From Streptomyces sp. RPA4-2 (GTDB taxonomy: Bacteria; Actinomycetota; Actinomycetes; Streptomycetales; Streptomycetaceae): a stretch of 64,000 bases of DNA. The stretch spans positions 2,418,001 to 2,482,000 of the forward strand of contig NZ_CP050975.2 of the NCBI RefSeq assembly GCF_012273515.2, written 5' to 3'. A program made the translations under genes and the position numbers. Under the pieces are notes generated by a model that was not told where the DNA came from, ran no database searches, and worked only from the letters and a program-made list of their open reading frames with translations. Of the stretch, positions 12,215-17,089 are shown piece by piece (position 1 is the first letter of the stretch; the number at the start of each line of letters is the position of its first letter).

Positions 12215-13425
12215 ATGACAGCTATGACCCCTGGCTCGAACATCCCTCTCCCCGTCACCCGCGTGACGGTGGACGTCGCCGCTCCGGTGCGGCTCGACGT
12301 GTCGGGCCTGCTGCTCACCGCCGACGGCAAGGTGCGCTCCGACGACGACTTCATCTTCTACAACCAGCCCACCGGCCCCGGCGTGACCTACCGCTCGGGC
12401 GGCGGCACCTCCCCGGACGCGATCACGGTCGACACGACCGCGGTCCCCCCGGGTATCGAGAAGATCGTCGTCACCGCGAGCCCGGACGCCGCTCTACCAG
12501 ACCTTCCAGGGCATCGAGCCCACGGCCACCATCCGCAACGCCGACGACAACGCCGTACTGGCCAGTTTCACGCCGCCCCAGCTCGGCACCGAAACGGCCC
12601 TGGTGATCGTCGAGGTCTACCTCCGCAACGGCGCCTGGAAGGCCCGCGCGGTCGGCCAGGGATACGCGAACGGCCTGGCGGGCATCGCCACGGACTTCGG
12701 CGTCACGGTGGAGGAGGCCCCCGCCGCTCCCCCCGACCCCCCCGATGCAGACCCCTGTCACCCCCGTCACCCCCGTGACCCCGTCGACCCAGGCAGCTCC
12801 CCCCGCACCCCCCGCACCTCCCACCCCGCCCTCCACCCCGCCCTCCGGAAAGATCAACCTCGACAAGGGCCGGGTGAGCCTCCAGAAGAACCAGACCGTC
12901 TCCCTGGTCAAGGGCGGCCGCCCGCTGCTCTCCCAGGTCAAGATGGGCCTCGGCTGGGAGCCGGCGTACCGCGGCAAGGACATCGACCTGGACGCCTCGG
13001 TCATCGCCTACGGCCCGCAGCGCAACCACATCGACAGCTGCTACTTCGGCAAGCTCTCCATCGTGAACGGCGCGATCAAGCACTCCGGCGACAACCTGAC
13101 GGGCGAGGGCGGCGGAGACGACGAGGTGATCGTCGTCGACCTCGGCCGGCTGCCGCAGGAGGTCACCGGCCTGGTCTTCACGGTCAACTCCTTCTCCGGC
13201 CAGAAGTTCACCGAGGTCGCCAAGGCCTACTGCCGGCTGATCGACGCGGCCAGCGGCGAGGAACTGGTCCGCTTCGACCTCACCAACGCCGAAGCCCAGA
13301 CCGGCGTGATGATGGCCAAGCTGATCAAGCAGTTCTCCGGCGAGTGGGAGATGACGGCCATGGGCGACTTCGTGAAGTCCCGCACGGTCCGCGGCATGGT
13401 GAAGCCGGCGGCCCAGGCACTCTGA
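12215..13425 (+). pseudogene. TerD-family tellurium-resistance-like protein, broken by two frameshifts
   Basis: Three frames together rebuild a TerD-family protein of about 400 residues. Frame one (12215 to about 12490) starts MTAMTPGSNIPLP and runs to VVTASPDA. Frame two (about 12490-12740) carries YQTFQGIEPTATIRNADD and VIVEVYLRNGAWKARAVGQ. Frame three (about 12740-13425) carries a proline-rich linker and a second domain with SLVKGGRPLLSQVKMGLGW, DLDASVIAYG and a C-terminal GVMMAKLIKQFSGEWEM, typical of TerD domains. The breaks lie near 12485-12496 and in C-runs near 12725-12745. TerD proteins bind calcium and belong to stress or phage-defence-linked ter systems. Sequencing error in the C-runs remains possible. 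Confidence 0.75.
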
Positions 13426-14959: not shown

Positions 14960-16546
14960 TCATTCACTCATCCACGGCCAGAGCCCGTCCCTGCCGGACT
15001 CGAGCAGGGAGACCATCCGGAACGCCGTGTCCGACAGGCCCCCGAACGTGTGCCGGTTGTCCTTGCCGGCCGGTCCGTGGCCGGCCCGGTAGCCGGCGAG
15101 GTTCCAGGTGTAGACCGGTACGTGCGCCGGGACCTGCTCGGTCGGGTCGCCGTGGTGGCTGTACGCGGCCTGCTCGTCCGTGACGATGAGCACCCGGTCG
15201 TGCCCCCGGTAGTGCGCCCGTACCGCCTCGCTGGTGTTCGTGCCACCGAGGTCGCCGAAGCGCTCCAGCACCTTCAGCACCGACTCGCCCCCGCGGAACC
15301 GCACCCGGTCGCTGCTGGTGCCGAACTGGACCAGGTCCGCGTCCGCCGCGCGCAGGGCGAGCGCCGTGCCGAAGACCGCCGCAGCGTCGGCCCGGTTGAG
15401 CTCCGAGCGGTCCGACAGCCGCGAGAAGAACATCGAGCCGGACCGGTCGACGAGCACGAGCGTCCGTCCGGGCAGCGCCGGCACGTTGGCCAGCGAGTGC
15501 CCGAGCGCCTGCTCCAGCGGGTACGACCAGCGCAGCGAGGGCGCGTGCTGGTAGGCGGCCAGATAGCGGAAGGGGAACTGGCGCGACCGTGCCACCTCCG
15601 CCGGGTCGCTGATCCGCACCGCGACCCGGGCCGCCACGTCGTCGCCGACACCCGCCTCGTCGAAGTTCCGCAGGTTGCGAACGAGCGCCATCGTGCCCAT
15701 GGACGGGATCACGGCCTCCCAGGCCGCCTTGTCCATCGGACCCTGCAGCCAGCCCGCCAGCGCCTCCCAGGTGAGACCCGCCGCCGCGAGCCGCTCGGCA
15801 CCGTCCGGAGCCGTCACGACCGCGCGCCGCTCGGCGACGGGCACCGCCATCAGCTCACGGTGCGCGACGAGCACACGGTTCGAGGCGGGCGGCAGCGCCG
15901 TGTCGGGGTTGTGGCGCCGGTCCAGGGCGTACTGGAACAGCTCGCCCTGCCACGGCTTGTCGGGGTCGGGCGCCGCGTGCACCAGGTTGAGGATGTCGCC
16001 GAAGCGGTAGCCCTTGGACGCGGTGTCGTACTTCAGCAGCGACTTGCCGTTGTACAGACGTCGTACGGCGTCGGCGATGCCGCGCTTGACGGGCTTGGGC
16101 ACGTTGCGGCCGTACCGGGAGGTCCAGTAGGCGAGCAGCTCGCCGGGCTCGTCGGGGCGGCGCAGCACGGAGGCGACGACCTGACGGTTGGCGGGGCCGT
16201 CGGTGGCGCCCGCGTCGAGGCGTGCCTTCACGTACTCGGCGGCGCCCACGACCGAGGCGGAGCGCAGGTTGCCGTCGCCGCGCAGCCAGCCGAGCAGGGC
16301 GGCCGTCCACGAGGGGTCGTGGACGGCGAGCTCGCGCACCAGCGTGGCGAACCGGTCGTCGCGGTCGGCGCCGCTCTCGTAGAAGGTCTGCTGCGAGACG
16401 AAGTGGGAGACGGCGAGCAGAAAGAGCTCGGAGCGCGCGTCGCGCTCCCGTCCGCGGCCGCCCTGATGTGTCCGCAGGACGCGGCCGGTCGAGGTGACCC
16501 GCGAAGTGGGCTGTGCCTTCGCGGCCTTGGTGTTGAATCGCGCCAT
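14960..16546 (-). CDS. rsr: Ro60/Rsr-like TROVE and vWA domain protein
   Basis: The 528-residue protein has an N-terminal TROVE HEAT-like ring (about residues 20-350: FLLAVSHFVSQQTFYESG, RYGRNVPKPVKRGIAD, KYDTASKGYRFGDILNL) and a C-terminal von Willebrand A domain with an intact MIDAS (LVLVDRSGSM, GGTNTSE, VTDEQA). This is the plan of the Ro autoantigen and bacterial Rsr, ring proteins that bind Y RNAs and misfolded RNAs and assist RNA decay or maturation with PNPase. The ATG at 16546 starts MARFNTKAAKAQ. Directly upstream on the same strand lie three Y-like RNAs, its presumed partners. No RtcB/RtcA genes are seen nearby. Confidence 0.92.
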   Translation of the reverse strand: MARFNTKAAKAQPTSRVTSTGRVLRTHQGGRGRERDARSELFLLAVSHFVSQQTFYESGADRDDRFATLVRELAVHDPSWTAALLGWLRGDGNLRSASVVGAAEYVKARLDAGATDGPANRQVVASVLRRPDEPGELLAYWTSRYGRNVPKPVKRGIADAVRRLYNGKSLLKYDTASKGYRFGDILNLVHAAPDPDKPWQGELFQYALDRRHNPDTALPPASNRVLVAHRELMAVPVAERRAVVTAPDGAERLAAAGLTWEALAGWLQGPMDKAAWEAVIPSMGTMALVRNLRNFDEAGVGDDVAARVAVRISDPAEVARSRQFPFRYLAAYQHAPSLRWSYPLEQALGHSLANVPALPGRTLVLVDRSGSMFFSRLSDRSELNRADAAAVFGTALALRAADADLVQFGTSSDRVRFRGGESVLKVLERFGDLGGTNTSEAVRAHYRGHDRVLIVTDEQAAYSHHGDPTEQVPAHVPVYTWNLAGYRAGHGPAGKDNRHTFGGLSDTAFRMVSLLESGRDGLWPWMSE

Positions 16547-16615
16547 GATGAATTCCCCCGAATTCTCGGTACGACGGTGACGTCGTGTTTCGGAGGGAGG
16601 CGCGGCAAAGGGAGG

Positions 16616-16758
16616 GTGCCCGAGTTCAGAGGGCGGCGACGGACCAGCCAGATGCTCTACCGATTGAGCTACGCCGGCCGAAGCCGGCGGCGGGACTCGA
16701 ACCCGCAACCGTCCGATCCCATGAAGTAGCCGTCGCCTGCGCACCGGGCACCGGGCAC
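16616..16758 (-). ncRNA. YrlA-type Y RNA with permuted tRNA mimic, copy 3 (nearest the Ro gene)
   Basis: On the minus strand the order is: outer stem GTGCCCG (16745-16751) pairing with CGGGCAC (16616-16622); internal loop GTGCGCA; inner stem GGCGACGG pairing with CCGTCGCC; T-arm GCGGG-TTCGAGT-CCCGC (16690-16706); a seven-base-pair acceptor-like hairpin CGCCGGC-TTCG-GCCGGCG (16672-16689); then TA and a D-arm GCTC-AATCGGTA-GAGC (16653-16671). The T-half precedes the D-half, and the acceptor helix is closed by a UUCG tetraloop, so it cannot be aminoacylated. This is the published plan of YrlA RNAs. A duplicated GTGCCCG at 16752-16758 makes the 5' end uncertain. Confidence 0.85.
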
Positions 16759-16773
16759 CCACCTTGAGCTGCG

Positions 16774-16847
16774 CCTCCCGAGATCAGAATCGGCGGCGGC
16801 ATGGGATTCTTTTGCAGAGAAGTAGCCGCAGCCCGCGCACCGGGAGG
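16774..16847 (-). ncRNA. Short Y-like RNA without tRNA mimic, copy 2
   Basis: Minus strand: outer stem CCTCCCG (16841-16847) pairs with CGGGAGG (16774-16780); the internal loop begins GTGCGCG as in the other copies; the inner stem GGCTGCGGC pairs with GCCGCCGCC with a mismatch at the fourth position, the same place as in copy 1; on the 3' side TTCTGATCT matches the CTGAACT of the others. The apical part (CTACTTCTCTGC and on) lacks T-arm and D-arm. It would be a Ro-binding module alone. Confidence 0.7.
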
Positions 16848-16860
16848 TGCATGAAATTGT

Positions 16861-17003
16861 GGTGTCCAGAGTTCAGGATCGGCGGAACCGACAAGGTGCT
16901 CTAACCCCTGAGCTACACCGGCCTGTTGTACCGGTGGCGGGACTCGAACCCGCGGCCGCCCCATTATGAGTGGAAGTAGGTCCTGCCTTCGCACCTGGAC
17001 GTG
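16861..17003 (-). ncRNA. YrlA-type Y RNA with permuted tRNA mimic, copy 1 (first transcribed)
   Basis: Minus strand: outer stem GTCCAG (16995-17000) pairs with CTGGAC (16864-16869); loop GTGCGAA; inner stem GGCAGGACC pairs with GGTTCCGCC with one A-C mismatch; T-arm GCGGG-TTCGAGT-CCCGC (16937-16953); acceptor-like hairpin CACCGG/CCGGTG (16931-16936 with 16916-16921) with a nine-base loop; D-arm TA-GCTC-AGGGGTTA-GAGC (16897-16915). A possible -10 box TAGAGT lies at 17009-17014, reading into the RNA. Conserved arm sequences would attract tRNA-modifying enzymes. Confidence 0.83.
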
Positions 17004-17089
17004 CATCACTCTAGGAGGCGTACCGCGGAACGGGCGAGCGAATTAATCGTGGGGCGAATGCGCGGAGTTCAGCCGCGTTTCCACGGAGT

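Follow-up and report, generated by a model that had tools for sequence, protein, structure and literature searches.

The Ro60/Rsr gene of Streptomyces sp. RPA4-2 is preceded by three tandem Y RNA units, two of which carry a circularly permuted transfer RNA (tRNA) body, and the unit farthest from the gene appears to hold a complete tRNA cloverleaf, anticodon-like arm included. The locus lies in a 64,000-nucleotide (nt) stretch of contig NZ_CP050975.2 (positions 2,418,001 to 2,482,000 of the forward strand), called here the window, and features at this locus are numbered within it. The explanation that fits best overall, held at slightly better than even odds (about 0.55), is that these are Ro-bound Y RNAs whose unchargeable tRNA bodies act as decoys or adaptors, the first unit (Y1) with an anticodon-like arm. 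Comparison among relatives shows the anatomy of the array, its pairing, its pattern of conservation and the switching of tRNA bodies in the third unit (Y3), and it argues strongly for the array anatomy and the Y1 arm. Binding of the window's Y RNAs to Ro is expected by analogy with the family.

An earlier note, made from the letters of the window, had described a Ro60/Rsr gene with three Y RNA units upstream of it on the minus strand, and both descriptions hold. The gene (ro, 14960..16546, minus strand, 528 amino acids, with ATG and TGA checked) encodes a protein with a TROVE domain (Pfam PF05731, 44.4 bits against a cut-off of 23), and rechecked coordinates place all three units ahead of it on the same strand. 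Y1 (16864..17000) holds the complete permuted cloverleaf, as judged from its sequence and from covariation in a 51-sequence alignment, A1. Y2 (16774..16847) ends in a short terminal hairpin and has no tRNA mimic, and Y3 (16616..16751) carries a class I permuted mimic like that of YrlA. The three share a 5' GGTGCG, an inner stem and a 3' CTGANCT, and ACUUC follows the inner stem in each, mimic-less Y2 included. The outer stems, which the note had taken to be the same, differ in sequence (GTCCAG/CTGGAC, CCTCCC/GGGAGG and GTGCCC/GGGCAC). Encoded beside Ro and built on a conserved basal stem with an internal-loop signature, the units have the makings of bacterial Y RNAs; Y1 and Y3, but not Y2, further contain a permuted tRNA-like module in which D, T and acceptor arms are all present. 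In both mimics the order is T-arm, closed acceptor hairpin, TA and D-arm, which bears out the note's count of two permuted mimics and one unit without. Its likening of the units to YrlA also finds support, since the Rfam YrlA model (RF02553) matches Y3 in full (50.2 bits, E 2.8e-9) and the Y1 core module (32.9 bits, E 2.7e-4), each below the curated cut-off. Y2 gave no match to that model in a search up to E 10.

Ahead of the T-arm in the window's Y1 stands UUCCA-CUCAUAA-UGGGG. This segment can be read as part of an anticodon-like arm of 5 bp, three from a local hairpin and two using the strand that follows the D-arm, around a loop C-U-N-N-U-A-A. The hairpin, CCA-CTCATAA-TGG, corresponds to nt 29-41 in tRNA numbering (16961..16973, minus strand), while nt 42-43 (GG, 16959..16960) pair with CC at nt 27-28 after the D-arm (16895..16896). 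The remainder of the body comprises a T-arm (16937..16953), a closed acceptor hairpin with the loop ACAACAG (16916..16936) and a D-arm (16898..16913), all on the minus strand. On this reading the cloverleaf of Y1 is complete and is interrupted at one point, between nt 28 and 29, by the Ro stem. The earlier note had both mimics cut at the anticodon; this is true of Y3, while Y1 keeps the further hairpin.

Evidence for the arm comes from stretches upstream of related Ro genes, 238 of which were reduced to 225 and then to 206 by a two-step removal of repeats. Because second Ro copies and near-copies remain among them, counts over the 206 are not independent events; one locus whose orientation is not settled (L182) was dropped. 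In 134 Y1 copies, the window's included, selected with a pattern that covered both stem and loop, the stem reads UUCCA/UGGGG in 111, UUCCA/UGGGC in 10, UUCGA/UCGGG in 8 and UUCCG/CGGGG in 5. Nt 43 and nt 27 change together without exception (G/C in 124, C/G in 10), the C/G form being that of L093, a locus of the same genus, and of nine loci from a second genus in the family. When Y1 was picked by its Ro stem alone, all three hairpin pairs were found in 135 of 138 copies; five copies lie outside the stem and loop pattern (L089, L099, L170, L177 and L187).

The earlier note had staked its reading on compensatory stem changes among relatives, and these are found. Alignment A1 contains 51 Y1 sequences chosen for diversity from 132 full-length copies (119 distinct); 99.9% of its cells are paired under the proposed structure and 13 pairs have changed on both sides. 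Three of the 13 belong to the arm, namely 27-43, 30-40 (CG 47, GC 4) and 31-39 (AU 46, GC 5), with 29-41 invariant. For the pairs made with the post-D strand, alignment columns 42-112 are invariant G-C and columns 43-111 are GC in 45 and CG in 6. Two pairs have changed on both sides in the T-arm, as aligned through Rfam, and three in the acceptor; the D-stem is invariant and hence shows no covariation. Shuffled alignments equalled the structure in 0 of 500 cases on four of five measures and in 1 of 500 on the fifth, a test in which related sequences can outscore shuffles. Slid along the alignment, the structure scored far lower than in its true register. An alternative in which the arm is a hairpin alone (U27.G43) was rejected, failing at 27-43 in 6 of the 51 sequences.

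A tertiary contact of the tRNA fold is also kept, and the window's Y1 fits it. Of 230 class I and initiator-like mimics, 227 have A-U or G-C at the Levitt pair 15-48, where shuffling gave a mean of 127.7 and at most 154; among distinct sequences the count is 162 of 165 (shuffled maximum 105). Since much of the contrast lies between Y1 (G-C) and Y3 (mostly A-U), shared descent contributes to it.

Within the Y1 loop, U33, U36 and A38 are held and A37 is held less strictly, while nt 34 and 35 drift. Changes were counted on a FastTree phylogeny of 162 Ro proteins that leaves aside two short ones (L098 and L105) and any sequence identical to another, and in which 41 of 159 inner branches are weak. 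For 118 rows with Y1 chosen by Ro stem only and no loop pattern imposed, the fewest changes are 3, 3, 32, 28, 4, 14 and 1 at nt 32 to 38, respectively. The recount was made in this manner because the pattern behind the first set fixed loop bases: the earlier figures (1, 0, 31, 25, 4, 11 and 0) come from 115 rows mostly chosen by a pattern in which the loop had to begin with CU, carry A at nt 38 and have a base other than U at nt 37. The contrast between nt 34-35 and the conserved loop positions persists in the pattern-free recount. Change as frequent as that seen at nt 34 and 35 argues that Y1 does not decode, and the marks of a tRNA gene, a fixed anticodon and an open acceptor end, are absent from it. 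Against a host set of 52 distinct tRNA sequences from 74 matches, the window's Y1 is nearest to tRNA-Met(cat), with 58 of 67 aligned positions identical; over the 134 copies the nearest host tRNA is Met(cat) for 75, Thr(cgt) for 45 and others for 14.

The retained bases recall a known modification signal. Formation of N6-threonylcarbamoyladenosine at position 37 (t6A37) in Xenopus oocytes requires U36 and A38 besides A37, according to the available part of one report (PMC3814370), and C32 and the D stem matter for the yeast, human and nematode KEOPS complexes in the available part of another (PMC9976931). With the comparison confined to determinant bases, the Y1 loop pattern resembles these t6A37 determinants, and a t6A link may be inferred for Y1 by analogy.

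Y3 evolves differently. The window's Y3 module (16648..16716, minus strand) has anticodon-stem strands at 16712-16716 and 16648-16652, a T-arm at 16690-16706, an acceptor at 16672-16689 and a D-arm at 16654-16669; it is of class I, cut at the anticodon and without an anticodon loop. Class I Y3 copies of relatives form at least 4 bp in anticodon stems of varied sequence in 74 of 87 cases, counted at a fixed 5-nt loop. At 57 loci Y3 is instead of a leucine type, with a D-arm (TGGCGGAA..AGACGCG) as in host tRNA-Leu, an anticodon stem such as CCAGU/ACUGG, and a variable region of 11-19 nt in 48 copies and 6 nt in the other 9. The summed best stem over 40 distinct variable segments is 207, against a mean of 128.6 and a maximum of 147 in 500 shuffles; a few segments fold poorly and may be misparsed (for example L254, L222 and L076). 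The two marks of class II, a tRNA-Leu-type D-arm and a paired long variable arm, are thereby found in Y3 of relatives; the window's own Y3 is not among them. Three further loci (L099, L103 and L107) have an initiator-like D-arm, TGGAGCAG, with a stem of the CCGGG/CCCGG type as read by eye.

Assigning these three labels requires 28 changes on the Ro tree, some of which may be tree error because of its weak inner branches; for the Leu group, 13 changes are forced by well-supported branches alone. Near neighbours such as L219 and L242 differ in the D-arm and one anticodon strand, and again in the other strand and the variable region; the T-arm and acceptor, which lie in between, and the enclosing Ro stem are largely the same. 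ACUUC lies 13-18 nt from the T-arm in 82 of the 87 class I copies (no ACUUC was found in the other 5) and 15-28 nt from it in the 57 Leu-type copies. Judged by these features, the Y3 slot is one in which the tRNA body changes type among relatives (class I, class II tRNA-Leu-like, initiator-like).

The earlier note thought it unusual that three units stand in a row with one lacking a mimic. A motif count over the 206 upstream stretches corrects this, finding three units at 107 loci, two at 79, none at 15, one at 4 and four at 1, so a three-unit array with one mimic-less member is a usual layout among the relatives examined. Y2 was found at 155 of the 206 loci; of its 144 distinct copies, 135 retain 8 or more of the 9 inner-stem pairs, and compensated changes occur among them. 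Of 295 genomes of the genus, the host's own among them, 167 have a Ro match at E <= 0.001; the corresponding figures are 61 of 101 in a family sample and 9 of 296 in a phylum sample (7 of these in the genus), and some of the matches are weak or partial. All 80 Ro relatives kept from 290 in named genomes are from Streptomyces. The host genome itself (9.86 Mb, a single contig) has one match to the window's Ro protein.

As a finder of unlinked Y RNAs the YrlA model was rejected. Its second-best match in the own genome (genome positions 3102323-3102435) overlaps two adjacent tRNA genes, and weak matches in the phylum sample, which were not inspected individually, are for that reason given no weight. 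That match hints that a permuted mimic could have arisen from the 3' half of one tRNA and the 5' half of the next.

Mobile elements carry related loci. Among 50,697 phage records 85 contain a Ro relative, as do 26 of 72,556 from plasmids, and by eye several Streptomyces and Gordonia phages show a row of Y-type units at the Ro locus. A viral set of 94 loci, made up of 14 from phages or plasmids and 80 from IMG/VR (kept from 473), yielded 103 ACUUC-linked mimics at 68 loci. In 59 of the 103 a 7-nt loop with U33 is closed by a hairpin stem of 3 bp; stem and U33 were imposed by the arm criterion, and bases and pairs elsewhere are independent of that choice. Among the 59, pairs 27-43 and 28-42 both form in 40, and U36 is present in 41, A37 in 48 and A38 in 55. 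Offset controls, in which the variable loop had the same latitude of 4 or 5 nt, gave 0-3 arms at -3, -2, +2 and +3, and 3-12 further out.

Several annotated tRNA genes overlap Y RNA mimics just upstream of phage Ro genes (L357, L359, L360, L367 and L369): tRNA-Ser gct in Alone3 and LuckySocke, tRNA-Arg cct in GiJojo, tRNA-Arg tct in VanLee and tRNA-Pro tgg in Frankenweenie. These annotations are likely misannotations. Two further loci were read by eye. A Streptomyces plasmid Ro paralogue (L365) has one mimic-less, Y2-like unit upstream, and in Gordonia phage Rabbitrun (L366:2200-2345) a Y unit has an apparent second T-arm inserted near the acceptor.

Taken as a mechanism, the three Y RNAs would bind the Ro60/Rsr ring through their common stem and internal-loop signature, and the permuted tRNA body displayed by Y1 and Y3 would be closed at the acceptor end and hence could not be charged as it stands. 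Y1 would offer every element of a cloverleaf, its acceptor, T and D parts and variable loop together with an anticodon-like arm nicked in the 5' strand; Y3 would offer a body without an anticodon loop whose identity changes among relatives. Their most likely role, as Ro-tethered decoys or adaptors, would be to bring Ro, with any partner nuclease, to enzymes that read tRNAs, or to titrate those enzymes. Since the Y1 loop keeps C32, U33, U36, A37 and A38 while nt 34-35 drift, its reader probably needs U36-A37-A38, and candidates are the enzymes of t6A37 formation or anticodon nucleases whose targets are loops of this kind. A Ro-tethered decoy or adaptor read through U36-A37-A38 is a tentative step further, one we infer at well short of even odds. 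The fullest version is slightly more doubtful: Y1-type RNAs as Ro60-tethered, non-decoding, unchargeable whole-tRNA decoys that keep the t6A37 determinants while nt 34-35 drift, a Y3 slot that swaps class I, class II tRNA-Leu and initiator bodies so that the Ro particle samples different tRNA surfaces, and phages and prophages carrying the same device.

Several observations weigh against the decoy or adaptor reading and the arm on which it draws. The Y3 and Y1 scores fall under the curated YrlA gathering cut-off of 69, which was reached in none of the 296 genomes of the phylum sample. RNAalifold prefers a hairpin from 28-42 to 31-39 (U28.G42) and leaves out columns 42-112 and 43-111, so two Y1 pairings may compete. 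No Y1 was detected in 43 of the 162 tree rows, and in a few copies (L089, L099 and L177) the arm is lost or altered in length. ARAGORN, tried and rejected as a tRNA test of un-permuted Y1, labelled 134 of 134 copies tRNA, yet did the same for 366 of 402 controls in which nt 29-43 had been shuffled; because this control scores nearly as well, the call gives Y1 no support. The viral set is mixed: 44 of the 103 mimics have no arm by the hairpin and U33 criteria, nt 36 is other than U in 18 of the 59 arms (G 10, C 5, A 3), and offset controls gave 31 arms at -1 and 30 at +1, figures in which some loci are near-copies and the variable loop was left free at 4 or 5 nt. The t6A data compared are from eukaryotic systems, and a structural U-turn loop would equally keep U33 and stacked purines.

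This last point leads to the strongest alternative, a minority possibility in our estimate, that the units are ordinary YrlA-type Y RNAs and the extra hairpin of Y1 is a structural U-turn stem-loop that stacks on the junction without a role in recognition. Drift at nt 34-35 suits such a spacer, as does the occurrence of GAA 3-14 nt after ACUUC in 114 of 144 distinct Y2 copies; with ACUUC in all three units and GAA in Y2, a hairpin at that spot may be ancestral. A U-turn is not known to need U36, however, and U36 is nearly fixed, with 4 changes against 32 and 28 at the neighbouring positions. Two pairs of the arm, moreover, use the post-D strand, which is tRNA-like.

Less probable is that Y1 is cut by anticodon nucleases in place of cellular tRNAs, the drift at nt 34-35 tracking nuclease specificity. 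An RNA ligase gene (PF09414, L363:1729-2481) lies directly upstream of Ro in Streptomyces phage JustBecause, a point in its favour. YrlA has been suggested as a competitor of an anticodon nuclease in the available part of PMC7790460, where YrlA fragments were not seen; this speaks against cleavage, although the YrlA described in the available part of PMC8394870 has no anticodon arm.

An improbable reading makes the array a cis-acting leader of the Ro messenger RNA rather than a set of separate RNAs. In its favour are a -10-like TAGAGT just upstream of Y1 (17008..17013, minus strand) and an inverted repeat, GAATTCGGGGGAATTC, at 16550-16565, whose loop contains the likely ribosome binding site of ro. 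A TANNNT hexamer stands ahead of a Y1- or Y2-type unit at 185 of the 206 loci (TAGAGT 79, TACAGT 39, TAAAGT 27, TAAGGT 11, others fewer) and is missing at 21, a count by pattern match alone with no chance control, so that the -10-like site is putative. A form of the inverted repeat occurs at 145 of the 206 loci, where it is a possible translational control of ro. Against a leader, a single Ro-stem signature recurs across the units, their number differs from locus to locus, and the tRNA bodies that they carry are separate and evolve differently.

That Y1 works as a permuted tRNA gene and is matured into a charged tRNA is very improbable: its full cloverleaf, its nearness to tRNA-Met(cat) and the ACCA with which some Y1 acceptor loops begin would suit one, but the anticodon varies between close relatives, the acceptor is closed (by TTCGG in 11 of the 134 copies), and no splicing route for permuted tRNA is known in bacteria.

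Around the array and ro, a PhoX gene lies upstream, and a TetR gene and a TerD-domain gene (12745-13425) lie downstream. In phage BRock a TerD-domain protein is likewise encoded downstream of Ro. A short tandem repeat, GTGCCCG, precedes Y3 (16740-16757), in two copies here and more in L011; slippage is a possible cause.

Among known systems, permuted tRNA genes of algae and archaea also place the 3' half ahead of the 5' half and are processed to real tRNAs; Y1, by contrast, has no fixed anticodon and its acceptor is closed. The transfer-messenger RNA (tmRNA) is likewise a non-coding RNA with a tRNA-like domain, charged and without an anticodon arm, whereas Y1 keeps the arm and would be unchargeable in its closed form. 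Mimic-less Y RNAs occur at loci with several Y RNAs, and Y2, with its Ro-stem signature and short hairpin, shows no difference from them. The closest relative is YrlA (RF02553; Salmonella structure 6CU1), which is alike in standing beside Ro/Rsr and in its basal stem, permuted T-acceptor-D body and closed acceptor, a layout that Y3 fits. That YrlA is circularly permuted with respect to tRNA has been reported (PMC11472068, available part). As described in the available part of PMC8394870, YrlA has D, T and acceptor arms only, is modified by DusA and TruB, and joins Rsr to PNPase, the last known from other species; the Rfam consensus structure of YrlA likewise shows no separate anticodon arm. 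Y1 departs from it in having a separate anticodon-like arm, and the array does so further in that Y3 of relatives can be class II or initiator-like and the window's scores stay under the Rfam cut-off. No prior account of an anticodon arm or a class II body in a Y RNA was found in the literature searched, partial texts that did not extend to the central primary papers; the novelty of both is accordingly provisional.

For the annotation of phage genomes, these comparisons suggest that a tRNA called next to a Ro gene is in some cases a piece of a Y RNA. Bodies of class I, class II and initiator-like type replace one another repeatedly at a single locus, with acceptor and T-arm kept, and would supply natural replicates for finding the partner of each body. 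With an arm in Y1, and a pattern that parts possible bases of recognition from those of decoding, the role of the tRNA-like part of Y RNAs becomes a specific question: who reads U36-A37-A38.

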